DNA of 64,000 nucleotides, from assembly GCA_023957245.1 (NCBI GenBank), contig JAMLHJ010000001.1, positions 62,001 to 126,000 on the forward strand. Reading direction: 5' to 3'. The notes beneath the pieces are model-generated. The model did not search any database, had not been told where the DNA came from, and saw only the letters and a program-made list of their open reading frames with translations. This DNA comes from Chitinophagales bacterium (lineage in GTDB: Bacteria; Bacteroidota; Bacteroidia; Chitinophagales; JADIYW01). Positions 46,901 through 62,890 of the stretch are shown here, in pieces (the first letter of the stretch is position 1; each line of letters opens with the position of its first letter). The position numbers and the translations under genes were made by a program.

Positions 46901-46938
46901 CGAATAAGATAATTTTTCATCAATAGGAGCATTGGAAA

Positions 46939-46956
46939 TTTATACATTCCGTTTCC
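46939..46956 (-). repeat. right-end transposase site R2
   Basis: TTTATACATTCCGTTTCC, one mismatch from the consensus, 24 bases from R1, the same close R1-R2 packing as in Mu. Confidence 0.8.
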
Positions 46957-46962
46957 CAAAAA

Positions 46963-46980
46963 TTTATACATTCCGTTTTC
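46963..46980 (-). repeat. right-end transposase site R1
   Basis: TTTATACATTCCGTTTTC, outermost copy. It is followed by a perfect palindrome CGAATTATAATTCG (46981-46994). Whether this is phage or host DNA is unclear. Confidence 0.8.
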
Positions 46981-47060
46981 CGAATTATAATTCGATAGCT
47001 AATTCATTACTAAATAGTAGATATTCAAGCTATTTCATTATATTAGTTATTCATTCTAAA

Positions 47061-48155
47061 ATGAGACAGTTTTTTTCTGCAATAAGAATTAAAGATTGGT
47101 GGAGTTCAATACTAATTCCAGTGGTTTCCTTTTATTTTATTGGGCTTCTGTACACAAAAAACACTCTAGTTGATCAATATTTAAAAAACACTATCTGGTT
47201 GTTATTATTATCTATTACTACTGCTTCATTTGGTTTTTATCTTAATGAATATACAGATATTAAGGATGATTTAAAAGCTGGGAAGGAGAATGCAGTTTCT
47301 TTACTTTCAAAGCCAAAAGCAATTACATTTCTTCTGTTTATCATCTGCATGATGACTCTCAGCTCCTTACCTTTTTGGAAGAATGAAAAAATTATCTTCC
47401 TATTTTTAATACAAATATTATTGTTTATAGTTTATAGTTGCCCTCCAATTCGATTGAAAAGAAACCCATATATTGCTGTATTACTTGACAGTTTATATAG
47501 TGGCACTTTATTTTTTATCATTGCTCTGATTTATTCAAATGCTAAAGTTACTTGGTCAATACTTGGTCTCACCATAGCATTTGGTGTTTTTAGAGGAATA
47601 AGAAATATCTTATACCATGTTACAAAAGATATTGAAATAGACAAGAAAGCAGGACAGAATACAGTTGCTCATATTGCTCGCAGTCAGACATTATTGAACC
47701 TACAAGCAATTTTCTTTTTTATTGAAATTTCATTTCTATTATATTTCATATTTCAGGTCTCATACATCACCTTTTTAATAACAATATTTGGTGTAATAAT
47801 TCTTCTAATAAAAAGAAATTACTATACTCATTATGAATTGGAAAAATCAGGAAAAAAAAGATGGTTATCAGAAATCAATACAATATATGAAGTTTGGTTA
47901 CCTATTGCAGCATTAACTGGAGTTTTCGCTATCCGTGAGTGGAAGACCTATTTTTTGAGTTTATTAATCCTTTTTCTTGTTTTTCCGAGTGTATTAAGGT
48001 TTCTGCACGAAATTTATATCATACTATCTAATTTTTATTACTTAGGATATAAACTGTTTTATCTAATTTCAGATATTTATTTTATAAAAATCAAACCACA
48101 TTTTGATATAGGCAAAAAGTGGAAACAACTAATAAGAAAGAGTGGAAATATCTAA
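47061..48155 (+). CDS. UbiA-family prenyltransferase or phosphoribosyltransferase
   Basis: 364 residues from ATG 47061; an ORF extension upstream runs through the phage end and is rejected. About eight transmembrane helices. The two Asp-rich motifs are LNEYTDIKDDLKAGK (Nxx-D-xxx-D) and TKDIEIDKKAGQN, diagnostic of the UbiA superfamily, which transfers prenyl groups or, in DprE-type relatives, phosphoribose to polyprenyl phosphate. In a glycan locus the second use would fit, but this is not decided. First gene of the rightward glycan operon; it starts only 80 bases after R1. Confidence 0.8.
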   Translation: MRQFFSAIRIKDWWSSILIPVVSFYFIGLLYTKNTLVDQYLKNTIWLLLLSITTASFGFYLNEYTDIKDDLKAGKENAVSLLSKPKAITFLLFIICMMTLSSLPFWKNEKIIFLFLIQILLFIVYSCPPIRLKRNPYIAVLLDSLYSGTLFFIIALIYSNAKVTWSILGLTIAFGVFRGIRNILYHVTKDIEIDKKAGQNTVAHIARSQTLLNLQAIFFFIEISFLLYFIFQVSYITFLITIFGVIILLIKRNYYTHYELEKSGKKRWLSEINTIYEVWLPIAALTGVFAIREWKTYFLSLLILFLVFPSVLRFLHEIYIILSNFYYLGYKLFYLISDIYFIKIKPHFDIGKKWKQLIRKSGNI

Positions 48156-49092
48156 TCAGATAAATGGATTATGGATTAAAGGACGGTTATCTTCTTTAGA
48201 GAATCTGACTATTTTATCTTTTTTAGAACAAAAATACGAATTTACATTATGGACTTATGACAATTTTGAATTATACTCAGATATAAAAGGATTAATTGTC
48301 AAAGATGCTCGCACAATTATACCTGAAGATGAAGTTTTTTGTTATTCTAATACCAATCAATTTGGTCATGGGAAGGGTAGCTTTGCTGGCTTTTCAGACA
48401 TCTTTAGATATAAATTATTATATCTATTCGGAGGCTGGTGGGTGGACATGGATGTTACTTGCTTGAAGCGTTTTGACTTTGACACCCCTTATGTATTTAG
48501 GAAAAGTAAATTAGATAGTGATTATATTGTAGGGAATATCATGCATGTACCAAAAGGTACGACGTTAATGAAAAAATGTTATGAAGAAGCTAAAGAAGCT
48601 GTGCATGCAGAAAGTAATGACTGGATGTTGCCAATCAATATTTTAAATCAGAACATTAAAGAAGAACAGCTTACACAATATGTTTATTCATTTTCCAATG
48701 AAGACAGTTGGATTACTGTTAGCTCTTTGCTAATATATCCTAAATATCCTCAATCATGGCATGCAATACATTGGATGAATGAAGAGTTTAGAAGAATTAA
48801 AATTTCTAAAGAAATCTATCTACAATCAAGTGTACTGGGAAATCATTATGAAAAGTACAACTTGGGGATTCCTATTAAAACTAAACTTGGGAAGTTGCAA
48901 TACACATTCAATGCAAGTAAAGTATATTATGCAATGATACATTTCAGAAGAGAGACGTTTTTCTCTAGCATGTATTACTTGATGTATAATCTATTTTATC
49001 TTTTCTCAGATTTTTACTTTTTGAAGATTAGACCGAGATTTGATTTGGTATATTATTTAAAAAGGTTGGTAGGAATTAAAAGAGTTCGTTAA
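48142..49092 (+). CDS. DXD glycosyltransferase, GT32-like
   Basis: 316 residues from a GTG start overlapping the UbiA gene by 14 bases. NQINGLWIKGRLSSLENLTI, FSDIFRYKLLYLFGGWWVDMDVTCLK holds the DXD-type motif typical of capsular glycosyltransferases of the GT32 type. It transfers a sugar from a nucleotide donor in the cytoplasm. The C terminus is hydrophobic, with a pattern (MYNLFYLFSDFYFLKIRPRFD) matching the C terminus of the UbiA protein, which may be a shared membrane anchor. Confidence 0.78.
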   Translation: MEISNQINGLWIKGRLSSLENLTILSFLEQKYEFTLWTYDNFELYSDIKGLIVKDARTIIPEDEVFCYSNTNQFGHGKGSFAGFSDIFRYKLLYLFGGWWVDMDVTCLKRFDFDTPYVFRKSKLDSDYIVGNIMHVPKGTTLMKKCYEEAKEAVHAESNDWMLPINILNQNIKEEQLTQYVYSFSNEDSWITVSSLLIYPKYPQSWHAIHWMNEEFRRIKISKEIYLQSSVLGNHYEKYNLGIPIKTKLGKLQYTFNASKVYYAMIHFRRETFFSSMYYLMYNLFYLFSDFYFLKIRPRFDLVYYLKRLVGIKRVR

Positions 49093-49102
49093 TAATAGTA
49101 CA

Positions 49103-49930
49103 ATGGCAAAAAACAAATCGGTTCAAATCATCTCTGCCCAACCAGAAACAATATTAGATTATATAAAAAAGGTATGGAATGCTAGATTGTTAATTGTTTC
49201 ATTTTCAAAAAGAGACATCCAAACCAAATATGCTCAGACTTTATTAGGAATTGCTTGGACTTTATTGCAACCAATTACTGGGATAATCATATTTACATTT
49301 TTTTTTCAATACATTTTAAAAATCAAACTTGAAGAAGCTCCATATCCAGTATTTGCTCTTATAGGATTCACTGCTTGGAATCTTTGGTCAAGTACTTTCC
49401 AACAAGGTAGCTTATCTATTTTTGAACAAAGAGGATTATTATCAAAGGTATATTTTCCAAAAATCATTCTCCCTTTATCAAAAGCATTGACTGGGACTTT
49501 TGACTTCATTATTGCGCTGACTTTACTAATTATATTGATTCCATTTTACAAAATCCATGTTTCATGGAGGCTTATTATCATACCTTTATTCTATTTAATA
49601 CAAATAATATTCTCAGTATCATTTGCAATAATTTTAGCAGTTTCTAGTGTCAAAAGAAGAGATTTATTTCATTTTGTCCCCTACATTCTCAACTTTGGAA
49701 TATGGGCAAGTCCAGTATTCTACGCTATCACTTTATTTCCAGAAAAATGGCAATTTATTTTTAATTACAACCCCATCGCTCTATGCATTGAAGGTTATAG
49801 ATGGTGTATTTTCAACAATTATCCTTTCAGAATAGAATTACTCTATAGCCTTCCAATTGTATTCACCTTTTCAATTATAGCACTCGTCATGATGAAAAAA
49901 AATGATGACCACTTTACCGACCATATTTAA
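49103..49930 (+). CDS. ABC-2 type permease, Wzm-like glycan exporter
   Basis: 275 residues, six transmembrane helices expected; FSKRDIQTKYAQTLLGIAW, PITGIIIFTFFFQYIL, SLSIFEQRGLLSKVYFPK and FNYNPIALCIEGYRW match the polysaccharide/polyol-phosphate export permease family. It pairs with an ATPase; the partner here lies 6.7 kb downstream, separated by dioxygenase genes. It is convergent with the first dioxygenase gene. Confidence 0.88.
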   Translation: MAKNKSVQIISAQPETILDYIKKVWNARLLIVSFSKRDIQTKYAQTLLGIAWTLLQPITGIIIFTFFFQYILKIKLEEAPYPVFALIGFTAWNLWSSTFQQGSLSIFEQRGLLSKVYFPKIILPLSKALTGTFDFIIALTLLIILIPFYKIHVSWRLIIIPLFYLIQIIFSVSFAIILAVSSVKRRDLFHFVPYILNFGIWASPVFYAITLFPEKWQFIFNYNPIALCIEGYRWCIFNNYPFRIELLYSLPIVFTFSIIALVMMKKNDDHFTDHI

Positions 49931-49931
49931 T

Positions 49932-50855
49932 TTATATAAAACCAGCCCCTATTCGACACCAAGCTTCTACTTTCTGAGAATTAAGTTTTAAGTTTTTAAA
50001 AACTTCTTCACCTTTTTTGGGATATTCCTCAGTAGGCCGCTTTTCAAATTCTTTGTCATAAAAAAATGACATATCGACTAGGAATTTTTCCACTTTACCT
50101 TTTGATGTTTCATCACCTACATAATAATGCAAAAAATCAGCTTTTTTCTGTTTAATAAAAAAATTCACTGCAATTCTATATTGTTCTGAAAAATTTGCTG
50201 GGGAGCAATGAATAGTTGCACTATCAAAGAACACAACCTCACCAGCTTTCATTTCAACTGGAATTGAATATTTCCAAAGCAAATCTAGATATGAATCAAA
50301 TTGCCAAGGAACATTTAATGAGCGCTGAGTATTACCAAATCTATGACTTCCAGGAACAACATGTAATGCTCCATTATTGACTGTAACATCTTGAAGTGGG
50401 CACCATGCATATACAGACATGTATTGGTCTTCTTCAACGTGGGAGCTATCCTGATGTGGATTCAATTCACTTTTATCTGTAGGTGGTTTTACAACAAACA
50501 CACCTCCCATCAAATCAGCTTGATCTGGCAGAAAAAATTGTTCCAAATAGGGTCTTACATATTTATAAACACTCTCTTTTGCCATATTCCTCACTACTAC
50601 ACTAGAAGGGCGACCACTGTTCCAAAATAAATCTTTAATTTCACTATCTTCTCTTTTCAAGATTTCAAAAAAATCTGTCTTGAGATTGTCTATTTGTTCG
50701 ATTTGCAGTAGATTCCTTACTGCATATCCCTTTTGTTTCAATTCATCTTGAATAGATTTGTCTAAAAAGAAATCCTGATTGTACTTCACTAATTCACCAT
50801 CACTGATGGGAAGCTCAAAACCAATCTTCAAAATATTTCTAAATGTGGCTAACAT
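49932..50855 (-). CDS. PhyH-family Fe(II)/2-oxoglutarate dioxygenase 1
   Basis: 307 residues; the longest stand-alone member here and the only one on the minus strand. Iron ligands H134 and D136 (NPHQDSSHVE), distal H216 (TIHCSPANF) and 2OG-binding R227 (QYRIAV) are all present; NGALHVVPGSHR is the family loop. It hydroxylates an unknown substrate. An N-terminal extension (30 residues) sets it apart. It is divergent from the other six by a 65-base gap. Confidence 0.85.
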   Translation of the reverse strand: MLATFRNILKIGFELPISDGELVKYNQDFFLDKSIQDELKQKGYAVRNLLQIEQIDNLKTDFFEILKREDSEIKDLFWNSGRPSSVVVRNMAKESVYKYVRPYLEQFFLPDQADLMGGVFVVKPPTDKSELNPHQDSSHVEEDQYMSVYAWCPLQDVTVNNGALHVVPGSHRFGNTQRSLNVPWQFDSYLDLLWKYSIPVEMKAGEVVFFDSATIHCSPANFSEQYRIAVNFFIKQKKADFLHYYVGDETSKGKVEKFLVDMSFFYDKEFEKRPTEEYPKKGEEVFKNLKLNSQKVEAWCRIGAGFI

Positions 50856-50920
50856 ATGATTTGAGTCATATTAACTTATAATAATTAATCTTACCTTTAG
50901 TAGCAGATAGTATAAATATA

Positions 50921-51781
50921 ATGCAAATTTTGAAAAACGATGAAGCTCAAAAGGAAATTTCTGAAAAGGGATTTACAATTTTTGATATTCTAGAAGCTAG
51001 TATTACTGAAAGACTATCTAGTCACTACCATTCTTTGAGCTCACCTTTTCAAACTGGATTTCATCCTAGTATGTTTTGGCAAAATACTCAAACAAAATTT
51101 GAAATCAGCCAATTAATATGCAAAGAACTGGAACCTTGGGTAGAAGAGCATTTTATAGGATATCGCCTTTTGTATGGCAATTTTATGGTCAAAGAACCAG
51201 GAAAGGAAAGTATCATGAAACTTCATCAAGATTGGTCTTATGTAGATGAAGAGTTTGAGCAATCTTTTGCTATTTGGTTTCCTTTACAAGACTTGACAGA
51301 CAGCAATGGTGCCTTATCCATGATACCTAGAAGCCATTTTTCCAAAAACCATCATCGTGGTCCAGGAACGCATTGCCCCTTTCTTGAAAATGAAGATTAT
51401 ATAATCGAAAATTTTGGGCAAGCATTATATCTAAAAAAAGGACAACCCGTCGTATGGGAGCATCATCTTTTACATTATAGTCCACCAAACTTATCAACCT
51501 CACCGAGAATTGCAGTTACTGCTATTATTGTTCCTAAAGACCAACCTATTTATCATTATTTTCAACAAGATTCAGATGCTGATATTGAGCAATATCAAAT
51601 AGAACCTCAATTTTACTTCAATTATAATATAGGTAAAAGACCAAAATATCATTCTCAATTAGTTCAAAACTTTTCTCCAATAAAACAAACTTATTCCATT
51701 AAAGAAATCAATCAACTCTTAGGAAAAGCTGAAAATAAAAAATTTAATTATATACAAAAACTTAAAAAAATATTCTCATGA
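50921..51781 (+). CDS. PhyH-family Fe(II)/2-oxoglutarate dioxygenase 2
   Basis: 286 residues. H102 and D104 (LHQDWSYVDE), H185 (LLHYSPPN) and R196 (SPRIAV) complete the facial triad and 2OG site; SNGALSMIPRSHF is the loop. It opens the rightward run of dioxygenases; its stop overlaps the next start (ATGA). About 25-30 percent identity by eye to its neighbours in the core only. No signal peptide, so it acts in the cytoplasm, before export. Confidence 0.88.
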   Translation: MQILKNDEAQKEISEKGFTIFDILEASITERLSSHYHSLSSPFQTGFHPSMFWQNTQTKFEISQLICKELEPWVEEHFIGYRLLYGNFMVKEPGKESIMKLHQDWSYVDEEFEQSFAIWFPLQDLTDSNGALSMIPRSHFSKNHHRGPGTHCPFLENEDYIIENFGQALYLKKGQPVVWEHHLLHYSPPNLSTSPRIAVTAIIVPKDQPIYHYFQQDSDADIEQYQIEPQFYFNYNIGKRPKYHSQLVQNFSPIKQTYSIKEINQLLGKAENKKFNYIQKLKKIFS

Positions 51782-52671
51782 GACAGGTACTCAATCACTC
51801 TGAACAAGAAACAAAATTTCATAAAGATGGATTTATTACTTTAAATCTTTTAAGTGAAAATCAATTTAAAGAGCTTACAAGAATAGTAAATGACCTGAAT
51901 TCTTCTCATCTAGAATATTCTGTAGAAGCTAATTCAGAATATAAGTTGAGTTATTTTAATGGTGATTTAGAATTTAAAAAACGTGTTTACAATACATTAT
52001 CAGAATTTTTTCAGCCTATTATTGATTTGCATCTAAAAAATTACAAACCTTTAATTATTAATATTTTCGATAAAGAACCTGGAGGAGGAGAAGTACCTAT
52101 GCACCAAAATTGGACTTTTGTTGACGAAAGCCAATATACATCTGTATCTGTATGGATTCCTCTTGTTAATGTATCTAGAAAGAATGGGGCATTAGAAACA
52201 CTCAAAGGAAGCCACAAAGTACTATGCCAATATAGAAGCCCTAGCCTACAATGGGTTTTTGATGAGTTAAATGATATTTTGAAGGAGAAATACATGGAAC
52301 CTTTTGAATTAGTCAAAGGTCAAGCGGCTATTCTAGATGACGGTATCTTACATTATTCTTCAGATAATGACACAGACGTTACTCGTACAACCGTACAACT
52401 TATTATGGTACCAGATGATGCTACCCCAATCCATTATGTAAAAAATGGAGACACAGTAGATATCTATAAAGTAGATTCCGAATTCTTTATGAAATACGAT
52501 ATGAAAAACCTTCCTGAAGGATATTCAGTGATTGGCAATCAACCAATAAGTTTAAAAAAATTAAATGAAGAAGAGATGGTAAAAATTGTAGCACAAAATG
52601 ACCCAACAATAGTAGAAAAATTTCAACCTAAAAGAAAACTTTCATTTTTAGAGAAAATTTTTGGAAATTAA
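51778..52671 (+). CDS. PhyH-family protein 3 with HxN instead of HxD
   Basis: 297 residues. The usual HxD is H109-Q-N111 (VPMHQNWTFVDE, codon AAT at 52108-52110), so one iron ligand is lost, while H192 (ILHYSSDN) and R203 (VTRTTV) are kept. The rest of the fold (SVSVWIPLV, KNGALETLKGSHK) is intact. It may be inactive, a partner for another dioxygenase, or have halogenase-like altered chemistry; Asn is not the Gly/Ala of halogenases. Stop and next start share one base. Confidence 0.82.
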   Translation: MRQVLNHSEQETKFHKDGFITLNLLSENQFKELTRIVNDLNSSHLEYSVEANSEYKLSYFNGDLEFKKRVYNTLSEFFQPIIDLHLKNYKPLIINIFDKEPGGGEVPMHQNWTFVDESQYTSVSVWIPLVNVSRKNGALETLKGSHKVLCQYRSPSLQWVFDELNDILKEKYMEPFELVKGQAAILDDGILHYSSDNDTDVTRTTVQLIMVPDDATPIHYVKNGDTVDIYKVDSEFFMKYDMKNLPEGYSVIGNQPISLKKLNEEEMVKIVAQNDPTIVEKFQPKRKLSFLEKIFGN

Positions 52672-54254
52672 TGTCCAATTCTGTTTCAAATATTCTTTCA
52701 CACCTACCCCTATCTCTTCATGATAATTTGGAAAGGGATGGATATGTTGTTATTGAAGGGATTGACCTATCTATTATCAAACAATTAAAATCAATATTCT
52801 ATAGTAAATTTCATCAAGGAGAGAATATTGGATTTCAAAGCACAATGAAAAATGTCAATGAATCCAACACAAGAAGAGAAATTTTTGAAGATATTGAAAG
52901 TTTGAGCACGACACTAATTGATACATATTTACCTGAATATCAAATTCACCTAGCCAATTTCCTATATAAATCTCCTCGTTCAACATCTGCAGAAGTGGGT
53001 GTACATAGAGATTGGTCTTATGTAGAACATAAGCTAGATAATGCATACAACTTTTGGATACCTCTAGATGATATTAATGATAGTAATGGGAATTTTTACA
53101 TCGTACCACAAAGCCATAAAATAATTCATGGTCCAAGGCTCACTCCTTTTCAGGATGAACTCGCTCCATTAAAAGATAAAATTCAAGCTTGGGGTAAGGC
53201 AATATCCTTAAAAGTGGGACAAGCATTAATTTACCATCCTGGATTAATACATTACTCCTTCCCCAATAACAGCCAACTAGGGAGATTGGTTGTAGGTATG
53301 GTCTGCAAGCCTCAAAATGCACATAGTTATCATTATTATCTAGATGATGATAAAAAATGTAGAAGATATGATGTAAACAAGGAATTTTATTTCGATTTCA
53401 ACCCCAACTTAATTCCCAAAGCAGAATACTCATATTCCTATTATAATGGTATTTTAGGAGAACCTGAAATAAAAAATTGGCTTGCATTAATGGAAGAAAA
53501 ACATGGATATTTACCTGATAGAGTTGCAAAATACTATGATAGTACAACTGATGATTATCTCGCTACTTATGGTTCAACAATACAAGCATTTCGTCCTAAA
53601 AACGAAGACGATTTACATCAATATATCATTAAAAGCGCTCAATTAGAAAAGCACCAGATGATTCTTGATGCAGGATGTGGGGTAGGAAGTCCAGCAATAT
53701 TTTTTGCCAAAAAAATCAATCTGAATATTATAGGAATATCAATAAGTCCACATCAAATTAATCTGGCCAATCAATTTGCTAAAGGCAAATGGCTGAAAGG
53801 GAAGGTTCAATTTCAAGTGGGAGATTACCACAAACTGTCAGAGATCGTACCCGAATCTCATTTTGACAGAGTTATATTCTTAGAGTCACTTGGACACTCC
53901 TATCGTCCAGAACGAGTAATACAAGAAGCTTTTAAAATATTGAAACCAGGAGGAGCAATCTATATTAAAGATTTCTTTCCTTATGAATTTGATGATGAAA
54001 TCACGCAAAGCAAGTATAAAAAGGTAGTAAAAAATATCAATGAAGCTTATTGTTATAATGTATTAGATTTAAATACTACAATTAGTCAATTAAGGAGAAG
54101 TGGATTTGAAGTAGGTTATATTAAAAAATTTGACTTTGTAGATGATATAGAAAAAAGAGCTGCTTTTGAAACTAGATTAGGCATTGATTTGTTTGGAGAT
54201 TTACCTGAGTTTAGAGTTGCAGAATGGTTGGAGTTGTATTTTGTTAAGCCATGA
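52671..54254 (+). CDS. PhyH dioxygenase 4 fused to SAM methyltransferase
   Basis: 527 residues. Residues 1-260 are a PhyH domain with H112 and D114 (VHRDWSYVEH), H194 (LIHYSFPN) and R205. Residues about 300-527 are a class I methyltransferase: motif I ILDAGCGVGSP at 331-341, ISISPHQINLANQFA, FDRVIFLESLGHSYRP and LKPGGAIYIKDFF. A hydroxylated position might be O-methylated by the same protein. The fusion is continuous without a weak linker or internal start signal. It overlaps the next gene by 4 bases. Confidence 0.88.
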   Translation: MSNSVSNILSHLPLSLHDNLERDGYVVIEGIDLSIIKQLKSIFYSKFHQGENIGFQSTMKNVNESNTRREIFEDIESLSTTLIDTYLPEYQIHLANFLYKSPRSTSAEVGVHRDWSYVEHKLDNAYNFWIPLDDINDSNGNFYIVPQSHKIIHGPRLTPFQDELAPLKDKIQAWGKAISLKVGQALIYHPGLIHYSFPNNSQLGRLVVGMVCKPQNAHSYHYYLDDDKKCRRYDVNKEFYFDFNPNLIPKAEYSYSYYNGILGEPEIKNWLALMEEKHGYLPDRVAKYYDSTTDDYLATYGSTIQAFRPKNEDDLHQYIIKSAQLEKHQMILDAGCGVGSPAIFFAKKINLNIIGISISPHQINLANQFAKGKWLKGKVQFQVGDYHKLSEIVPESHFDRVIFLESLGHSYRPERVIQEAFKILKPGGAIYIKDFFPYEFDDEITQSKYKKVVKNINEAYCYNVLDLNTTISQLRRSGFEVGYIKKFDFVDDIEKRAAFETRLGIDLFGDLPEFRVAEWLELYFVKP

Positions 54255-55072
54255 GTTTACAAGAACAAATAGAAGATAAAAAATTTGAGAAAAGTGGTTA
54301 TTTTAATTACCCTCAACTTCTTTCATTAGAAGGAATAAATAAGCTTTTGGAATATCAACAACTAGAACAGCAAAAAAAGCAATCTGGATTTTATAGTAGT
54401 ATTTGGGAAGAAGATGTTGCAAAAAGGCAACGGGATTTTGAAGTCATCAAAAATATAGCATGGGCAGAAATCTCTCATAAACTACCTGGCTATAAGCTCA
54501 TTATGGCCAATTTTATGATTAAAAAAAATGAGCAAGAAAGTGCTTTAGGTTTACATCAGGATTGGACTTTTACTGATGAAGAACAACATCGAACAACCAA
54601 TATTTGGATTCCTTTAATGGATATGACTAAAGAGAATGGTCCTATGAACTTTATCTTAGGTTCACATAGAATCCATCATCCTATTCGCGGAAAAAATATT
54701 GAACAAATGTTTGAAAAGGGGAGCCCATTTTTACAAAAATATTTCAACAGACACTTTCTTACAAAAAAAGGTGATGCTATTGTTTTTGATGTAAGAATGA
54801 TTCATTATTCCCCAGCCAATATTTCAAACAATATTAGAATGGCTATTTCAATGGTTATTGCACCTATTGGTACCCAATTAGTGCATTATTATAGAACTGA
54901 CAGATTCTCTCCTATTGTTCAAAAAATCCACATAGATTATACTTATTTTTACGAATACCATTTAACAGACATTCCACTTCAAATTAAAACCATATCTAGC
55001 AATAAATATCAAAAAGTCACATTTTGGAAACAGTTAAAAGCTATTATAAATATCATTTGGGCTAATCTATAA
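54251..55072 (+). CDS. PhyH-family Fe(II)/2-oxoglutarate dioxygenase 5
   Basis: 273 residues. H102 and D104 (LHQDWTFTDE), H185 (MIHYSPAN) and R196 (NIRMAIS) are present; ENGPMNFILGSHR is the loop. Closest by eye to member 2 in the motif spacing. A 5-base gap to the next gene keeps it in the operon. The N terminus is Lys/Glu-rich (EQIEDKKFEKSGY). Confidence 0.87.
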   Translation: MSLQEQIEDKKFEKSGYFNYPQLLSLEGINKLLEYQQLEQQKKQSGFYSSIWEEDVAKRQRDFEVIKNIAWAEISHKLPGYKLIMANFMIKKNEQESALGLHQDWTFTDEEQHRTTNIWIPLMDMTKENGPMNFILGSHRIHHPIRGKNIEQMFEKGSPFLQKYFNRHFLTKKGDAIVFDVRMIHYSPANISNNIRMAISMVIAPIGTQLVHYYRTDRFSPIVQKIHIDYTYFYEYHLTDIPLQIKTISSNKYQKVTFWKQLKAIINIIWANL

Positions 55073-55077
55073 ATTTC

Positions 55078-55851
55078 ATGAGACAGATATTCTTCAATAA
55101 AGATTTAGACATTCTTTTCAAAGAAAATGGGTATGTTGTTATTCCACAGTTAGTTGAATTTGAATGTAGAAATAAAATTTTATCATATTTCAAAAAATGC
55201 AATATTGAAAAAAGCAATACAATACAACTAACAGGTTCAATAAAGGATTTCTCATTAAAATCTAACATACATGCGTATATCAGCTCAACTATTGCACCCC
55301 TGACTCAAGAAATTTTGATAAACTATGAACCTGTACAAGGAATATTCTCTAATAAACCTCCTCATCCTGACTCTACTATGTGTATTCATAGAGATTGGAA
55401 TCTAGTAGATGAAGCTCAATTTACATCATTGAGTGTATGGACACTTATCGATGGTGATTCAAATCAACACGGTCATTTAGATGTCTGGCCCAAATCCCAT
55501 TTAGAACACTATTCAGTAAGAGGGCGTAATTTTGACTTTGAAATTCTTCCAGAAAAGTTTGAACATTCAAGAAAGACCATATACCTAAAAGCAGGAGATG
55601 CAATCATCTTTGACCATAGATTGGTTCATGCTTCAGGAGCAAATCTTTCCGATACAGATAGGCTAGCAGCAGTGTTAGCATTTTTACCTAAAGAAGCTCC
55701 TTTATTGCATTATTATAAAGATATGGCACATCATGAATTAAAAGTGTTGGAATTAGAGAAAAGTCAATTTCATCTACTTGACTTTACGCTTTCAGATTTA
55801 CCACCATATAAGCAAATTGTTAAAACTACAATATTACCCTATGAAAAATGA
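55078..55851 (+). CDS. PhyH-family Fe(II)/2-oxoglutarate dioxygenase 6
   Basis: 257 residues. H104 and D106 (CIHRDWNLVDE), H184 (LVHASGAN) and R195 (DTDRLAAV) are present; the loop is changed to NQHGHLDVWPKSH. Shorter than the others. It overlaps the next gene by 11 bases, coupling translation. Substrate unknown. Confidence 0.87.
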   Translation: MRQIFFNKDLDILFKENGYVVIPQLVEFECRNKILSYFKKCNIEKSNTIQLTGSIKDFSLKSNIHAYISSTIAPLTQEILINYEPVQGIFSNKPPHPDSTMCIHRDWNLVDEAQFTSLSVWTLIDGDSNQHGHLDVWPKSHLEHYSVRGRNFDFEILPEKFEHSRKTIYLKAGDAIIFDHRLVHASGANLSDTDRLAAVLAFLPKEAPLLHYYKDMAHHELKVLELEKSQFHLLDFTLSDLPPYKQIVKTTILPYEK

Positions 55852-56665
55852 AATTTTCCACCTAAAGCAACATGCAGAAGATTTTCAAAGAGACGGTTAT
55901 ATAGTAGTCAATCTTTTGACAGATCAAGAGATTGATTTTTTATTAGAAAAATATAATTTAATTGAGAAAAAATCATTGAATGGAGTTACCCAAAACAGGT
56001 ATAATACATTAGAAATTGAAGACTATAATTATAGATCTAGTGTATATCACCATTTGTCTCCATTCTTAGCTGAGCGGATCAAAAAGTTCGTAAAAGGCTA
56101 TCAAATTATAGGTATTAATTTTGCTGTAAAAAAACCATTTGGAGAAGAATTTCCTCCACATGTAGATGACTCTCATACTGATAGCGAACTATTGGGGATT
56201 AATGTCTGGATTCCTCTGACCGACGTAACACCTCAAAACGGAGGTTTATATATGTTTAAAGGCACCCATCAAATCAATATCCCAATGCGTGGAATTGGGT
56301 TACCCTTTCCTTATCCTCAACATTTAGAAACCATCAGAAAATATGCACGGCCACTATCTTTAAAGCTTGGGCAAGCTATTATTTTTAATGATAAAATTAT
56401 TCATGGTTCAGGGAAAAACAATAGCCAAGTTGAAAGGCCAGCGATTATTACTGGGATGATTCCAGAAGATGCTACAGCAAAAGTTTTTGTAAGTTATGAT
56501 AGCATAGGTAATAATAAAGCGGAACTCTTTGAAATATCGACAGATTTTTTTCTCACATTTTCTTTCAAGGGGCGCCCAAATGGTTTTAAGAGTTTAGGGA
56601 TTTTTGACTATATTCCACCACAAATAGATGATAAGTCATTTCAAGAATTGATTACCTCTTCATAA
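55841..56665 (+). CDS. PhyH-family Fe(II)/2-oxoglutarate dioxygenase 7
   Basis: 274 residues from ATG 55841; an in-frame extension 21 codons upstream overlaps member 6 and lacks support. H107 and D109 (PPHVDDSHTD), H188 (IIHGSGKN) and R199 (VERPAI). It has PHxDDSH instead of HQDW, like member 1 (PHQDSSH), so members 1 and 7 may share a substrate type. The gene ends 1 base before the ATPase gene. Confidence 0.87.
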   Translation: MKNEIFHLKQHAEDFQRDGYIVVNLLTDQEIDFLLEKYNLIEKKSLNGVTQNRYNTLEIEDYNYRSSVYHHLSPFLAERIKKFVKGYQIIGINFAVKKPFGEEFPPHVDDSHTDSELLGINVWIPLTDVTPQNGGLYMFKGTHQINIPMRGIGLPFPYPQHLETIRKYARPLSLKLGQAIIFNDKIIHGSGKNNSQVERPAIITGMIPEDATAKVFVSYDSIGNNKAELFEISTDFFLTFSFKGRPNGFKSLGIFDYIPPQIDDKSFQELITSS

Positions 56666-56666
56666 C

Positions 56667-57887
56667 ATGGATGCACAATATGCGATAATCGCAGAAAATC
56701 TTTCGAAAGAATATACTATTAACCTTTCACGAATTGAAGAAGTTTTTTTAAAAACGGTTTCAAAAGGTCAAAAAATTGAAGTGCTAAAAAACTTCAATTT
56801 TAAAATAAAAAAAGGAAGTGTTACAGGTATTATTGGAGTCAATGGAAGTGGGAAAAGTACATTGTTGAAAATTTTGGGTCAAATCTTAAAACCTGATCAT
56901 GGCAAAATATTTATCAATGGAACAGTTGGAGCCATTATTGAGTTGGGAGCAGGTTTTCATCCTGACCTAAGTGGGTATGACAATATATTTTTCAATGCAA
57001 CATTACATGGCTTTGCAAAAAAAGACATTCAAATATTTATAGATGACATCATAGATTTCAGTGAGTTACATGAATTTATTCACGAACCTATTAAGCATTA
57101 TAGTAGTGGAATGTTAATGAGATTGGCATTTTCCATAATTATATATCTTCCATTTGATATTTTATTGCTAGATGAAATATTTGCAGTAGGAGATCAAAGT
57201 TTCAAATTGAAATGCATGCAGAAAATTAAAGAATTGTCATATTCCGAAAAAACAATCTTAATAGTCAGCCATGATTTTATTCAATTAAAAAATATTTGTA
57301 GTGAATTGATATTTATACACAATCACCAAGTCAAAATGCATGGAGATATCAACGATGTAATAGAATCATATATAGTTAATACAAATTTCTTAAGTTCTTC
57401 ATTTTCTTTTACTGAAGGAGAATATGATTGGCAAAATCCCAATAAAAATCAAGAAATTGAACATTTATCTTTTTACACAACTTCACACAAATATCAGTTT
57501 TTAAATTCTGAACAAATTGAACTGAACTTTAAATTCAAAAAAAAATCAGATTCAAAAATTAATATTGCAGTAGTCTTTAATAGTGGAATTGAACAGCCCT
57601 TTATGGCATATAGCACAACTAATAAAATCAATGGTGATTTTGAAATATATTCAAAAGGAAAATACCATTTACAAACAATATTACCAGCCAACTTTCTCAA
57701 TGAGGGGCTTATACTAATAGATGTACATTTTATCGATAAAGAGGCAACAGATATCTGCCAAATAAAATCATTAGCTCAATTACAGATAAAAAAAGATACT
57801 TCTGATAAAGATATTTTCTTAAAAGAAAAGAATTTTATTGGCCCCATATTTCCTTTAAGTCAATGGAAAATAACAAGCAATGAATAA
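56667..57887 (+). CDS. ABC transporter ATPase, Wzt-like with C-terminal domain
   Basis: 406 residues. Walker A GVNGSGKST at 57-65, signature HYSSGM near 143, Walker B DILLLDEIFAVGD, and H-loop VSHD. Residues about 250-400 form an additional beta-rich domain (LNSEQIELNFKFKKKSDSKI) as in Wzt proteins that recognise the modified end of a glycan. It powers the Wzm-like permease upstream of the dioxygenase run. The C-terminal domain may read the marks added by the PhyH/methyltransferase proteins. The next start overlaps by 8 bases. Confidence 0.88.
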   Translation: MDAQYAIIAENLSKEYTINLSRIEEVFLKTVSKGQKIEVLKNFNFKIKKGSVTGIIGVNGSGKSTLLKILGQILKPDHGKIFINGTVGAIIELGAGFHPDLSGYDNIFFNATLHGFAKKDIQIFIDDIIDFSELHEFIHEPIKHYSSGMLMRLAFSIIIYLPFDILLLDEIFAVGDQSFKLKCMQKIKELSYSEKTILIVSHDFIQLKNICSELIFIHNHQVKMHGDINDVIESYIVNTNFLSSSFSFTEGEYDWQNPNKNQEIEHLSFYTTSHKYQFLNSEQIELNFKFKKKSDSKINIAVVFNSGIEQPFMAYSTTNKINGDFEIYSKGKYHLQTILPANFLNEGLILIDVHFIDKEATDICQIKSLAQLQIKKDTSDKDIFLKEKNFIGPIFPLSQWKITSNE

Positions 57888-59550
57888 GTTTGTTCATTTT
57901 TTAAGTAATCACCCTAGTCTTGTTTATACCTTATTGTTTTTGGGAATATTCATACAATATCCCCTTTCTGGATCATTACCTGGACATTCAGATACACTAT
58001 TAAATCTCTCTATCTTTAATGACACTTTAAATAGGATATCTGCATTTATTCATCATGAGGCAATAGGTAGGGCCTATTATCCAGAGCTATATTATGAAGC
58101 ATTCACAGAATTGTATTGGGGACATATTCTGATATTTATTCCATTCAAATTAATTCATCTATCTGATATTTGGGCTTATTATTTTTTTATAAGCATCATA
58201 TATATTCTCAATGCTTATGCTGCTTTTTATTTTTTCAAATATTTTAATTTTTCAAAAGAAAGTAGTTTGCTAGGTGGACTCCTTTTTTCAGCCAATGCAT
58301 TTGCATTTAGTCAGATAGAATTTCTTAATGGCATACCTTATTTCTTTTTCTTCTCTGCGCTGATAATGTATTTCAAATATATCCAAAGTAAGCAATTTAA
58401 ATATCTTGCTTTTTCATCTATTTTAATAGCAGTGGAGTTTTACTTTTCCATATATATTACAATCTATTTTGTTGTAATTTGTTCTAGTATTTTCATTGTA
58501 CATTTTTTCCAAAAGAAAGGTATATTAATCTCTATACAGGATTTAATAAAAGCAATTATTATTGGGCTTATACTCATCTCCCCATACATCTATATCATGA
58601 TAAAATATGGATTCTTAACTGGAGGATATAGTGTTATAGATGTTAATAACATAGAAAAATTTTCTCTTCATTTAACAGATTTGATTAGACCACTTCCCAA
58701 TCATCAATTTTACAAAGATTGGTTTCCTCAAAATGACAATGATTCCTTTAGAATGGTGAATTATGGTTTTTTGGGTATTAGTTTCATTCTATTTTCGATA
58801 TTAGGTTTCAAAAAAATTAATAAATATTTTAAACCAATATTTTATATTTTTCTTTTTTCAGGTATAATACTTTCTGTAGGTCCCTATTTTTATAATGGCA
58901 ACTTCAGAATTCCAGCTCCATTATATCCATTGTATAAAAATCTTGGATTTTCAGGTGCATTAAGGATTCCAGGTCGAGCATATTCTTTAATCATCATCGC
59001 TGCTATTTTTTCAATACTTTCATTTTTGGACAAAATGGACACCAAGGGTATAAAAAATATCACCATTATCTTATTTGCTATTGTTTTTTATTTTGAAAAC
59101 ATTCCACACAGATTTGTTCATAATGAATATGAAAAGCAGCTTACAATGCCTACTTTTCCTAAAGTATATTTAGATAATCTTCCCAATGATGAGGTAATTC
59201 TTACTCTTCCCAGTTCTTTATTCACGGGTAAAAAATTTAGAAAAGATGGACTAAGTGAACATTCAAGAGAAGAGCTCTATTTACTTTGGCAAACTCAACA
59301 CAAAAAAAATACAGTCAATGGCATAGGTTCGTATATGTCATTTCATAGAAAAGATGTAGATAGTTTAATTCATGCAAATAAATGGGATGCACTATACCTC
59401 AATTATCAGATATCGAAAATAGTTTATTTCAAAGATTATGTAATTGACAATACTGACATAAATCAATTAGAAAATCTAAAAAAATCTACCCTTTTTAAGG
59501 AAATAAAATCTACTGACAAAATCATTATTTTTGAAGCTAAGCAGAAATAA
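57880..59550 (+). CDS. polytopic membrane protein, GT-C/YfhO-like
   Basis: 556 residues with roughly ten to eleven transmembrane helices. SGSLPGHSDTLLNLSIFNDT contains an acidic residue in the first extracytoplasmic loop as in GT-C glycosyltransferases, and the C-terminal soluble part (VYLDNLPNDEVILTLPSSLF) is like YfhO-type proteins. It would transfer a sugar from a lipid carrier on the periplasmic side. Last gene of the rightward operon; the convergent GT2 gene begins 3 bases beyond. Confidence 0.65.
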   Translation: MNKFVHFLSNHPSLVYTLLFLGIFIQYPLSGSLPGHSDTLLNLSIFNDTLNRISAFIHHEAIGRAYYPELYYEAFTELYWGHILIFIPFKLIHLSDIWAYYFFISIIYILNAYAAFYFFKYFNFSKESSLLGGLLFSANAFAFSQIEFLNGIPYFFFFSALIMYFKYIQSKQFKYLAFSSILIAVEFYFSIYITIYFVVICSSIFIVHFFQKKGILISIQDLIKAIIIGLILISPYIYIMIKYGFLTGGYSVIDVNNIEKFSLHLTDLIRPLPNHQFYKDWFPQNDNDSFRMVNYGFLGISFILFSILGFKKINKYFKPIFYIFLFSGIILSVGPYFYNGNFRIPAPLYPLYKNLGFSGALRIPGRAYSLIIIAAIFSILSFLDKMDTKGIKNITIILFAIVFYFENIPHRFVHNEYEKQLTMPTFPKVYLDNLPNDEVILTLPSSLFTGKKFRKDGLSEHSREELYLLWQTQHKKNTVNGIGSYMSFHRKDVDSLIHANKWDALYLNYQISKIVYFKDYVIDNTDINQLENLKKSTLFKEIKSTDKIIIFEAKQK

Positions 59551-59553
59551 TAA

Positions 59554-60267
59554 TCATCGAAACAATCCATATTTTAGGATATAAAAGATAGCTTTTACTC
59601 CATCTTTCCAATTAATTTTTTTACCCTCTTCATAAGTTCTTCCATAATAAGAAATACCTACTTCGTAAAATCTCACCTTTGGAATTCTAGACAATTTAAT
59701 AGTAATTTCTGGTTCAAATCCAAATCTCTTTTCATGCAAATATAGACTTTTAGCCATCTTCGTATTGATAAGCTTATAACATGTTTCCATATCCGTCAGA
59801 TTGAGATTGGAAAAGATATTACATAATTTAGTTAAAAATTTGTTTCCCAAATCGTGATAAAAATACAAGACCCTATGTGGCTTGCTTCCTATAAATCTTG
59901 AACCATATACTACATCTGCCAATCCCAATAAAACTGGATATAATAAGTCATGGTAATCATTAGGATCATACTCCAAATCAGCATCTTGAATAATTAAATA
60001 TTCTCCTGTTGCAAGGCTTATCCCTTTATGAATAGCCGCTCCTTTTCCTTGATTAATTTGTTGCGAGAATAATTGAATACTATCTGCTGAATGACTATCA
60101 ATATAGTTTTGAACAATCAAAGCACTGTCGTCAGTAGAAGCATCATCAACCACAATTATCTCCTTCTTAATTTCATCTAATTGGACTGATAAAATCTTAT
60201 CTAGTATTACAGTAATAGTACTTTCTTCATTATACAATGGTATTATTATAGAAAGTGTCTTCAGCAT
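59554..60267 (-). CDS. GT2 glycosyltransferase, dolichyl/polyprenyl-phosphate type
   Basis: 237 residues. SIIIPLYNEESTITVILDKI, EIIVVDDASTDDS, GKGAAIHKGISLATGEYLII and QDADLEYDPNDY are the GT2/DPM1 signatures (nucleotide binding and DXD-type). It makes polyprenyl-phosphate sugars, a donor for GT-C enzymes such as the adjacent gene product. No C-terminal transmembrane anchor, but FYILKYGLFR is hydrophobic. Convergent with that gene, with a 3-base gap and no terminator. Confidence 0.85.
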   Translation of the reverse strand: MLKTLSIIIPLYNEESTITVILDKILSVQLDEIKKEIIVVDDASTDDSALIVQNYIDSHSADSIQLFSQQINQGKGAAIHKGISLATGEYLIIQDADLEYDPNDYHDLLYPVLLGLADVVYGSRFIGSKPHRVLYFYHDLGNKFLTKLCNIFSNLNLTDMETCYKLINTKMAKSLYLHEKRFGFEPEITIKLSRIPKVRFYEVGISYYGRTYEEGKKINWKDGVKAIFYILKYGLFR

Positions 60268-60401: not shown

Positions 60402-61634
60402 TTAACGTTCAACATCATATATACTATCCTCTTTTTTTATAACGAATGGAGTCACAATTTTCTCCAAACTATGTGCCATCATGCTATAACCTTTTGCATT
60501 ATGATGGCTATCCTTGGGCCAATAATAATCTTGGAACTTTGCTTTATGAGTAATCATATATTCATCATAACAAGGTTTCAGACTATAATACTTTAGATGA
60601 GCCTTAGAAAATTTTTCTGCCATTTCAATATAAACCTTATTTATTTCAGGTGTATAATAGTGTTGACTAAAAGGAATATCAAAGATAATTAAACCTATAT
60701 CTCTGTCTTTGGCGTACTGATGATATTCTTTAAAAAGCTCAACAGATTCAAACTTCATCTTTTCTAACAAATCAGGATAGATCCCTTTTTTAACCAAAAA
60801 CTTGTCGTAGTCGCCCAATACTTGAATAAATACTCTAGCGGTATAGCTGAATACATATATGGGCGTCCACCAAAAGTCATAAGATTTTTTTAGATTACCT
60901 TCCTTATCAAAACGTTCTTTACCACCTCTCATAATGAAGTCTGAAAATAAATCATTATATGAAAATGATTGTAGGATAATATCTGGTTGGTATTTAATCA
61001 AGGTTTTCTTTAAAAAATCAAAATCAAAGAACGGGTCTGAACCCAATCTCCCAGCATTAATCAACTCAATATTCTTATATTTCTTTTGTAAAGATCTATC
61101 TAAAAATCTCACATAAGAAGAATCCTGATGTGCACCATCCCCTTCAGTAAAAGAGTCTCCCATACATAAAATTCTTAAAATATGTTCTGGTTTTGGAGTC
61201 ATATACTCTTTATCTGTTAAGCCAACACTATTGTGATTTCTTGAATACATAAACTCCTCTTTCTTTATATCATACTTATCAAATGGCTTCCTCAAATAAT
61301 AGTTCGCTGCATGGTTCTTATCAAGCGGCAATAAATAACCATTAAACATCATTGGGTCATATATGCTATTAGGTTGGATAAGAACTAATATTAGCTCAAT
61401 AGAAAAATATATTTTAAGAAAATATGTCAATTTACTTTTGATGCTGACACTTAAAAATCTTAATCTATATATGAATTGGACAAAAAGGATAAGATAAATA
61501 GGAATTGAAAGATTGATGAATTGGCTGACATAAGTTCCTTTCTTAATCAGAAAATAAAAGAAAACAAAAGGGAAAACCAGCAGAAAGAGATGGAGTAAAA
61601 ATTTTACAAGTTTATATTGAGATAGAATTTTCAT
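60402..61634 (-). CDS. membrane-anchored SGNH hydrolase 1
   Basis: 410 residues. Two or three hydrophobic helices in the first 90 residues, then SGNH blocks: CMGDSFTEGDG (Ser nucleophile), LGSDPFFDFDF (block II Gly), SYNDLF (Asn) and KDSHHNAKGYSMM (Asp-His). Such proteins (AlgX/DltD-like or acetylesterase) add or remove acyl groups on exported glycans. It overlaps its paralogue by 4 bases. The 134 bases upstream of the GT2 gene hold nothing notable. Confidence 0.82.
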   Translation of the reverse strand: MKILSQYKLVKFLLHLFLLVFPFVFFYFLIKKGTYVSQFINLSIPIYLILFVQFIYRLRFLSVSIKSKLTYFLKIYFSIELILVLIQPNSIYDPMMFNGYLLPLDKNHAANYYLRKPFDKYDIKKEEFMYSRNHNSVGLTDKEYMTPKPEHILRILCMGDSFTEGDGAHQDSSYVRFLDRSLQKKYKNIELINAGRLGSDPFFDFDFLKKTLIKYQPDIILQSFSYNDLFSDFIMRGGKERFDKEGNLKKSYDFWWTPIYVFSYTARVFIQVLGDYDKFLVKKGIYPDLLEKMKFESVELFKEYHQYAKDRDIGLIIFDIPFSQHYYTPEINKVYIEMAEKFSKAHLKYYSLKPCYDEYMITHKAKFQDYYWPKDSHHNAKGYSMMAHSLEKIVTPFVIKKEDSIYDVER

Positions 61635-62890
61635 TGCTCATTAATATTTATCTGTGGCTCAATAATCTCTTGAATACAATGTGCCATCATCTCATAGCCC
61701 TTAACATTGTGATGACCGTCCTTTACCCAAAAATAATTTTTATAGCTCGTTTTAGTACTCTTAAAATATTCATCATAACAAGGTTGAATATTATAAAAAG
61801 GGAGTCCTATTTGTTCAAAATCAATTTTAAGATTTTTAAAAAAGATGTTATTAGTTGGTTTATTGACTCCCAAGTTATTTGAATAGTCAAAGCGAAAAGG
61901 CATTGTAAAAATAATAAGTTTAAAATGGTTGCTTTTAGAAAGCTTCTGATATTCTTTAAATAGCTGGATAGTTTTCTTATACATATCATCCATAATAGCA
62001 GGATAATCTCTTTTATTAATTAAAAAGCCATCATACCCGCCGATTGCCCGAATCAATATCCTTGCAGTAAAGCTAGATGCATATATAGATTCCCACCAAT
62101 AATGATTTCTAAATTTGACAGTACTATCATTGACAAATCTTTCATTGCCACCTCTTAAAGCAAAATCAAAATAATAATCATTGGTGGTAAAAGATTGAAT
62201 AACCATATCTGGTTGATATTCAATAAGGACCTTGCTTAAATGATTAAAATTAAAGAATGGATCAGAACCTCTTTTACCTGCATTGAGTACTTCTATATTT
62301 TTATACTTTTCATTCAGTAACCTTTGTAAAACCTGTGGATATGAGTCTTCGTAATCGACTCCATCTCCTTCAGTGAAAGAATCGCCTATGCAGATAATTC
62401 TATAAGTTTTCTCATCTTTTTCTTTTGTCCATTCTTTATCAGAAAGTCCAAGTGCATTGGTTTGTCTTTTGAAAACAAACTGACCAGTATTTGTATTTAG
62501 TCGTTCGTAAGGCTTACTTGTATGATAAATATTTTCATCTCGAGAATCATTAAAACTGACATATTGCCCATAAAGAGTATTATTGTTTAAAAAGAAAACA
62601 TTGATAAGTACAAGGATAGCTTCTACAATGAAATAAATAGTAGAAAAAAATTTTCCTTTTGAAAATATTCGAGATAGCTTTGTTGTTTTTTTTGAAAGAA
62701 AATCAAATATAACGATAAAGTAAATTGGTATAATTAAATTAGTATGATATCCAATAGCCAATGTTTCGATATATCTATACCAATAAAAAAATACAAACAA
62801 ATACGCTATAAGAAAGATGATTAATAAGAATTTTAAAATTTTATTATTAATAATATATTGAAAAATCTGATTAAATAGTCTGATGAGCAT
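61631..62890 (-). CDS. membrane-anchored SGNH hydrolase 2
   Basis: 419 residues; paralogue of the previous gene with the same layout: helices in the first 90 residues (FLLIIFLIAYLFVFFYWY, NLIIPIYFIVIFDF), CIGDSFTEGDGVDYEDSYP, RGSDPFFNFNH, TNDYYF and KDGHHNVKGYEMM. Tandem duplication is likely. It probably works in the periplasm on the same glycan with a different acyl or site preference. Confidence 0.82.
   Translation of the reverse strand: MLIRLFNQIFQYIINNKILKFLLIIFLIAYLFVFFYWYRYIETLAIGYHTNLIIPIYFIVIFDFLSKKTTKLSRIFSKGKFFSTIYFIVEAILVLINVFFLNNNTLYGQYVSFNDSRDENIYHTSKPYERLNTNTGQFVFKRQTNALGLSDKEWTKEKDEKTYRIICIGDSFTEGDGVDYEDSYPQVLQRLLNEKYKNIEVLNAGKRGSDPFFNFNHLSKVLIEYQPDMVIQSFTTNDYYFDFALRGGNERFVNDSTVKFRNHYWWESIYASSFTARILIRAIGGYDGFLINKRDYPAIMDDMYKKTIQLFKEYQKLSKSNHFKLIIFTMPFRFDYSNNLGVNKPTNNIFFKNLKIDFEQIGLPFYNIQPCYDEYFKSTKTSYKNYFWVKDGHHNVKGYEMMAHCIQEIIEPQININEQ

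Follow-up and report, generated by a model that had tools for sequence, protein, structure and literature searches.

Organisation of the locus

The window, that is the whole stretch of 64,000 nucleotides that was analysed, originates from the 3.1-Mb genome of an uncultured Bacteroidota bacterium. It contains seven divergent PhyH (Fe/2OG dioxygenase) genes, designated w1 to w7, between the genes for a Wzm-like permease of the ABC-2 polysaccharide exporter type (49103–49930, + strand) and a Wzt-like ATPase (56667–57887, + strand). The first copy, w1 (49932–50855), is located on the - strand between wzm and an operon of six genes on the + strand, which consists of w2 (50921–51781), w3 (51778–52671), w4 (52671–54254), w5 (54251–55072), w6 (55078–55851) and w7 (55841–56665). 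These six genes are arranged head to tail with junctions of -4, -1, -4, +5 and -11 bp, and the last of them ends 1 bp before wzt. Thus, the array of seven PhyH genes, six of them in a tight operon and all of them enclosed by wzm and wzt, is present as described in an earlier note on this DNA.

Upstream of wzm, there are genes for a UbiA-family prenyltransferase (46932–48155, + strand; PF01040), a family that is recurrent near such arrays, and for a DXD-motif glycosyltransferase (48142–49092, + strand; Gly_transf_sug, PF04488) with relatives at other array loci. The wzt gene is followed by a gene for a multi-spanning membrane protein (57880–59550, + strand) that resembles YfhO/GT-C enzymes in its sequence and matched no Pfam family, and by genes on the - strand for a family 2 glycosyltransferase (59554–60267; PF00535, 106 bits), two SGNH/GDSL-type membrane proteins (60402–62890; PF13472 for 61631–62890, with 60402–61634 being homologous) and a radical SAM protein (62938–63942; PF04055). 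The glycan context that had been proposed for the array is supported. A Mu-like prophage adjoins the locus.

The PhyH enzymes and the methyltransferase partner

All seven proteins score far above the curated cut-off of 22 bits for the Pfam family PhyH (PF05721), with 54–78 bits and E-values of 3e-14 to 2e-21 (w1, 77.5; w2, 63.6; w3, 54.2; w4, 62.8; w5, 73.9; w6, 58.0; w7, 65.8 bits), and a profile search of the 3.1-Mb genome revealed that they are its only PhyH genes. The copies share pairwise identities of 21–28% and group with proteins from other genomes and not with each other. For instance, w1 and w2 have orthologues and w7 has relatives in genome G011 and at locus L074, and the orthologue of w6 is one half of a fused protein at the latter locus. 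Recent tandem duplication in one lineage, which the earlier note had suggested to examine with a tree of the seven copies, could therefore be ruled out. A plasmid- or virus-borne array was likewise rejected, as a search of viral contigs with w7 gave no match and a search of plasmids with w5 retrieved four plasmids with no more than distant PhyH genes.

The HxD metal site is present in w1 (HQD...H...R), w2 (HQDWSYVDE), w4 (HRD), w5 (HQDWTFTDE), w6 (HRDWNLVDE) and w7 (HVDDSHTDS). The w3 enzyme (HQNWTFVDE), a member of the widespread orthogroup A (clade support 98), and its orthologues have HQN instead. The second histidine and the downstream arginine, which binds 2-oxoglutarate, are conserved in all seven copies including w3, and none of the seven has the HxG or HxA site of Fe/2OG halogenases. 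One PhyH orthogroup in genome G011 carries an HxG/HxA-type site. The PhyH profile and the structural model of w3 (pLDDT 91.8) are closest to MysH, SnoK, SnoN, EvdO2, AviO1, HygX and EvdMO1 as well as to human PHYH. These solved relatives, among which are an epimerase, a carbocyclase and orthosomycin oxygenases, are mostly sugar- or cyclitol-tailoring enzymes, the homology being remote throughout.

The 527-aa protein encoded by w4 is a fusion of an N-terminal PhyH domain and a C-terminal SAM methyltransferase domain (PF13847/PF08241), the nearest solved relatives of which are sugar O-methyltransferases. Since no kinase domain was matched by Pfam in w4, the protein is not WbdD-like. Neither this fusion nor the HxN site of w3 had been recognised in the earlier note.

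The exporter and its carbohydrate-binding domain

The permease exceeds the cut-off of ABC2_membrane (PF01061, 49.9 bits), gives weak NCBIfam matches of the KpsM/Wzm type and is homologous to the Wzm proteins beside other arrays. The ATPase exceeds the cut-off of ABC_tran (PF00005, 67 bits), and its best NCBIfam matches are TagH and the galactan Wzt, both below the equivalog cut-offs. The C-terminal part of the ATPase (about residues 245–406) was modelled as a jelly roll (pLDDT 79) with the Wzt carbohydrate-binding domains (CBDs) 6o14, 8dky and 2r5o as the top Foldseek matches, and a profile match (E 4e-4) points in the same direction. Judged by profile and fold, it is thus predicted to be a CBD of the type recognising modified O-antigen caps, in line with the role that the earlier note had tentatively suggested for this domain. 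A Wzt CBD of this kind has been shown to recognise a methylated terminal sugar (PMC9445017).

Recurrence of the array in other genomes

Contrary to the initial impression that the array is unlike any other, strong homologues were found in 55 of the 299 genomes of the order. A census of loci, for which the HxN enzyme of orthogroup A alone served as the query, yielded 60 named loci, 53 of which contain at least three PhyH domains. Multi-PhyH arrays are widespread, and the view that PhyH proteins occur only singly in glycan loci has to be abandoned. A wzm or wzt gene is located at most two genes away in 41 of these 53 arrays, so that the homologues are not scattered apart from ABC exporter genes, the outcome that would have spoken against the link to the exporter; in the other 12 arrays, some of which stop at contig ends, no wzm or wzt gene was found this close. 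Moreover, in 22 of the 53 arrays, Wzm and Wzt lie on either side of three or more PhyH domains, and the two exporter genes are direct neighbours in only two. The separation of wzm and wzt by seven PhyH genes in the window thus recurs in most array loci holding both genes; adjacency is usual in such exporters but not essential. Given zero to four Wzm genes of this type per genome in the genomes checked, chance placement of the arrays beside ABC genes was rejected (rough chance estimate <1e-50).

The arrangement, for which a search in other Bacteroidota had been proposed, indeed recurs in many of them, often with a fixed gene order, and the Bacteroidota origin of the DNA is supported. Five or six core orthogroups are found in a fixed order across families, commonly as Wzm-A(HxN)-B1/B2-C-D-E-methyltransferase-Wzt. 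The array in the window represents a divergent second type with orthologues in another family. The number of PhyH copies varies even among relatives of the same genus (7, 18 and 16), and array content also differs between loci. PhyH-PhyH and PhyH-methyltransferase fusions as well as overlapping ORFs occur among the arrays, the latter fusions in three arrangements (w4; L079; L102/L121/L122/L126/L133). The census of the HxN site is partly circular where orthogroup A is concerned, because HQN is part of one of the two patterns with which it was searched; the loci L065–L084, which were found with a broad profile, provide an independent check and agree with it.

The distribution of the system is patchy, its carriers being mostly members of this order and Flavobacteriales-type MAGs. 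In a broad sample of the phylum, the HxN-family profile matched only two of 395 mostly complete genomes, one of which is the window genome. An array is also present in a GC-rich Lysobacterales contig. Among the neighbours of the arrays, glycosyltransferases and radical SAM proteins prevail. Homologues of WelO5-type (HxG) halogenases occur in 26 of the 55 array-bearing genomes versus none of the 244 others. WelO5-family genes with the HxG site adjoin related arrays, and the window genome has none. No published description of such PhyH arrays was found in open-licence PMC papers.

Comparison with known systems

The locus shares Wzm, a Wzt with a CBD and a co-encoded methyltransferase with the capped ABC-dependent O-antigen export systems of E. 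coli O9a and Aquifex aeolicus (PMC9445017). However, the known caps consist of methylation, phosphorylation or Kdo, whereas up to seven Fe/2OG dioxygenase domains are encoded between wzm and wzt here. Moreover, a WbdD-type terminator combines a methyltransferase with a kinase, whereas w4 combines it with a PhyH domain. In the pathways of the orthosomycins avilamycin and everninomicin, one oligosaccharide is modified by several Fe/2OG enzymes of the PhyH fold (AviO1, EvdO2 and EvdMO1), and a protein joining a methyltransferase and a PhyH-type domain, as in w4, is among them. However, their similarity to the window enzymes in sequence and fold is only remote, and the orthoester chemistry is a feature of the orthosomycins. 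The latter are secreted actinobacterial antibiotics made with fewer oxygenase copies, and their clusters are not known to be sandwiched between Wzm and Wzt. The "sporadic carbohydrate cluster" 2OG-Fe(II) oxygenases (TIGR04324) are PhyH-type enzymes from carbohydrate clusters as well; most of the seven match this family weakly, and membership was rejected (at most 32.9 bits versus a cut-off of 150). The WelO5-type enzymes beside related arrays belong to the carrier-independent Fe/2OG halogenases; WelO5 itself acts on indole alkaloids. Finally, Xanthomonas citri has a PhyH gene, XAC3597, that shares an LPS cluster with wzt and wzm, and an insertion mutant was recovered from a biofilm screen (PMC3130047). 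That cluster has one PhyH copy and no array, in contrast to the seven copies in the window.

Proposed function and alternative explanations

The seven PhyH domains and the methyltransferase of the window are encoded with and between Wzm and Wzt, an association that has been preserved across Bacteroidota. The arrangement points to a heavily oxidised, methylated and so far undescribed surface glycan, and the array is probably the oxidative tailoring module of this ABC-transporter-dependent glycan. ABC-exported glycans are completed in the cytosol, and thus the cytoplasm is where tailoring enzymes could reach them. The soluble enzymes would act there in sequence on the lipid-linked glycan before export, presumably using Fe(II), O2 and 2-oxoglutarate. 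Some of them may act as hydroxylases or may instead oxidise or rearrange positions of the sugars. The methyltransferase domain of w4 could cap a freshly made hydroxyl. The HxN enzyme (w3) might catalyse a related but altered reaction or serve as a non-catalytic partner.

If this holds true, many uncultured Bacteroidota devote a whole operon of O2-dependent enzymes to one exported glycan, and oxidative, perhaps halogenating, chemistry would join the known ways of finishing or licensing ABC-exported polysaccharides. The arrays would also supply families of Fe/2OG enzymes ready for study, with glycans as their likely substrates, and the HxN site would serve as a naturally conserved case for testing a metal site that lacks the carboxylate. 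Because the gene set is small and forms a single operon in several genomes, the proposal is directly testable.

We tentatively consider it possible that the modified residue or residues form a non-reducing-end cap, which is read by the Wzt CBD as an export licence. CBD divergence weakly tracks array composition beyond the divergence of the NBD (partial r 0.24, permutation p 0.002), which lends weak support to a cap. Seven enzymes are many for one single cap. Moreover, the CBDs share a mean identity of only about 20% across arrays and the core PhyH members are far less divergent, which would be surprising for a core that produces one and the same cap throughout. In its most specific and rather speculative form, which we regard as unlikely, an ordered line of Fe/2OG oxygenases, which includes the invariant HxN enzyme and is joined by a sugar O-methyltransferase and, in many relatives, by a WelO5-type halogenase, would furnish the surface glycan with a terminal element that is oxidised, methylated and in some cases also halogenated and that the CBD reads before export; this would be an undescribed export-licensing chemistry.

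The PhyH enzymes could instead modify internal sugars of the repeat unit or nucleotide-activated precursors, with array content setting a serotype-like diversity. The variation of PhyH number within one genus and between loci, the wide divergence of the CBDs and the arrays that are not beside Wzt fit this explanation. However, five or six orthogroups in a fixed order across families are unlike typical variable O-antigen genes, and the slot between Wzm and Wzt is a frequent site of cap terminators, which in capped systems are often encoded there. We consider this explanation rather unlikely.

Genes of the UbiA family, which occur at 29 of the loci in the clustering of array neighbourhoods and also next to the array of the window, allow for an isoprenoid or lipid as the substrate. 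Instead of a polysaccharide, the exported molecule might then be a lipid or natural product that is prenylated or glycosylated, with UbiA making its isoprenoid part and the PhyH enzymes oxidising the latter. Other lipid-linked molecules can also be the cargo of Wzm/Wzt-like exporters, and the substrate of human PHYH is a branched isoprenoid acyl chain. Yet most loci lack UbiA, the Wzt protein ends in a CBD, the methyltransferase is closest to sugar O-methyltransferases and the neighbours are rich in glycosyltransferases, which makes such cargo improbable. Finally, a horizontally mobile surface-glycan island that passively gathers oxygenases with unrelated substrates would agree with the patchy distribution, the adjoining Mu-like prophage and single PhyH genes in other glycan loci such as XAC3597 near wzt/wzm in Xanthomonas (PMC3130047), but it is very improbable, since the conserved gene order, the overlapping ORFs, the PhyH-PhyH and PhyH-methyltransferase fusions and the recurrence in the GC-rich Lysobacterales contig argue for selection as one unit.

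Distribution and exporter linkage of PhyH arrays

The PhyH array is a widespread system and not a local oddity of the window genome. A scan of 84,980 genomes for the HxN orthogroup, whose metal site carries HxN instead of HxD, yielded 60 loci, which come from MAGs labelled Chitinophagales, Saprospiraceae, Sediminibacterium, Fluviicola and other Flavobacteriales, from one Lysobacterales MAG and from Sphingomonas deserti. At least three PhyH domains are present in 53 of these loci, so the window array is not unique; the open-licence papers searched do not describe PhyH arrays of this kind. Moreover, PhyH clusters are present in most genomes of the window's family, with a maximum of 18 copies and with two PhyH domains each in some proteins. 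Among the 299 genomes of the order, 55 gave strong matches to the array PhyH profile (E < 1e-60), whereas the others matched it weakly (E of about 1e-23 at best) or not at all.

The suggested link between PhyH genes and an exporter is well supported. The Wzm permease gene directly adjoins the array in 37 of the 53 loci, Wzm or Wzt lies within two genes in 41, and at least three PhyH domains separate Wzm from Wzt in 22; the two exporter genes are neighbours in only two arrays. Since exporter proximity is expected by chance in at most 2% of the loci (an upper-bound estimate), 41 linked arrays are far beyond chance, even if shared ancestry is allowed for. The genomes checked carry zero to four Wzm genes of the array-linked kind, and Wzm is absent from a small control of seven weak or isolated PhyH loci (L058-L064). 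The search for the same gene order in other Bacteroidota uncovered a recurrent arrangement, usually Wzm, the PhyH orthogroups A (HQN/HEN), B1/B2 (often fused), C, D and E, a methyltransferase and Wzt.

In addition to Wzm-Wzt, the proteobacterial contig of the Lysobacterales MAG (L131) harbours UbiA, a methyltransferase and a large part of the core PhyH set. Its GC content is uniform at about 62% (61.6%) vs 32% in the window array, which fits a real transfer across phyla better than mis-binning. In S. deserti, a single HxN PhyH relative (L143:10001-10930) occurs without exporter or array.

The window array represents a second array type

In the window, Wzm (49103-49930, plus strand) is followed by w1 (49932-50855, minus strand) and, on the plus strand, by w2 (50921-51781), w3 (51778-52671), w4 (52671-54254), w5 (54251-55072), w6 (55078-55851), w7 (55841-56665) and Wzt (56667-57887). 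All seven copies score above the Pfam PhyH cut-off and lie between the exporter genes, as the earlier note observed, and a whole-genome search detected no further PhyH gene in this genome. Because the junctions of the head-to-tail run from w2 to Wzt overlap (4, 1, 4 and 11 bp) or leave tiny gaps (5 and 1 bp), these genes look like one transcription unit. The array is surrounded by genes for a UbiA prenyltransferase, a DXD glycosyltransferase, a GT2 enzyme, GDSL-type proteins and a radical SAM protein.

The copies share only 21-28% pairwise identity. A quick tree (SH-aLRT support only) placed w3 in orthogroup A (support 98) and the other six copies outside B-E, grouping window copies with relatives in the same-genus genome G011 and in L074, a locus from another family, f22 (support 82-99). 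L074 has a Wzm of its own, next to relatives of w1, w2, w3, w4, w6 and w7. Thus, the recent tandem duplication considered in the earlier note was not borne out, and the tree indicates that the window array is a second array type, whose genes were passed on or transferred together instead of arising by duplication on the spot. G011 contains two similar w1-w2-w3 segments with Wzt, on contigs C30 (L036/L086), which terminates inside the array, and C52 (L040/L085), which is very short.

Several minor features were observed around the array. The UbiA prenyltransferase and the adjacent glycosyltransferase have a common C-terminal tail, FYLxSDxYFxKIxPxFD (encoded at 48057-48155 and 48994-49092, respectively), found elsewhere only in the glycosyltransferase of G011. 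A Mu-like prophage (22000-46900) with a Mu portal, a Mu F-like protein, a tape measure and an integrase-core transposase candidate ends just ahead of the glycan locus. Radical SAM/SPASM genes are numerous around array loci (window 62938-63942, L057, L038, L048, L051).

Predicted function of the array

The array probably serves the cytoplasmic oxidative tailoring and O-methylation of an ABC-exported glycan. PhyH and methyltransferase domains are fused in three different ways, namely in w4 (fused to a SAM methyltransferase), MT-PhyH-PhyH (L079) and E-MT (L102, L121, L122, L126, L133), which argues for coupled hydroxylation and methylation. The nearest relatives of the w4 methyltransferase are 6uv6, a D-glucose O-methyltransferase, and further methyltransferases that act on small molecules. 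Both the PhyH profile and the w3 model (pLDDT 91.8) are closest to MysH, SnoN, SnoK, AviO1/EvdO2, HygX and EvdMO1. These enzymes mostly tailor sugars or cyclitols, with epimerisation, ring closure and the formation of orthoesters among their reactions; therefore, hydroxylation is not the sole possibility for the array enzymes.

The C-terminal domain of the window Wzt matches Wzt carbohydrate-binding domains by both profile and fold; one of the domains matched is that of A. aeolicus in complex with 3-O-methyl-mannose. Array composition is tracked somewhat more by divergence of the carbohydrate-binding domains than by that of the NBD, a weak trend without tree correction (partial r 0.24, permutation p 0.002). 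In the published mechanism, a cap marks the finished polymer as ready for export (PMC9445017). The cap is a tentative candidate for the site of modification.

The metal site is HxD...H in six of the seven window copies; in w3 the motif reads HxN, while the second His and the Arg that binds 2OG are conserved. A tally over the examined loci, about a dozen of which are duplicates, gave 372 HxD, 77 HxN and two HxG sites. The HxN cases, nearly all in orthogroup A and usually first in the array, come partly from the 60-locus set, which is partly circular because one of its two search patterns contains HQN; the same HxN was found in 20 loci recovered with a broad profile (L065-L084). The HxN protein may act as an altered enzyme or may instead serve as a structural partner. 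Its orthogroup (window 51778-52671; A in L065-L144) is kept across families.

Several arrays are adjoined by genes of the WelO5 family (E 2e-70 to Pfam PF22814; E 2e-32 to the solved halogenase) that carry the halogenase-type HxG site and lie next to Wzt or Wzm-Wzt (L120:15807-16715; L128:15779-17579; L099:10670-11557; L151:6351-8965), and in L151 three of them directly follow Wzm-Wzt. None was found in the window genome. WelO5-family genes occur in 26 of the 299 genomes of the order, and each of these 26 also belongs to the 55 that carry arrays (Fisher p 2e-22); this confinement suggests that halogenation may be part of the wider array system. In one G011 array PhyH (L086:13093, i.e. C30:27837, and L040:240 on C52), HQD is replaced by HQG, the triad characteristic of Fe/2OG halogenases.
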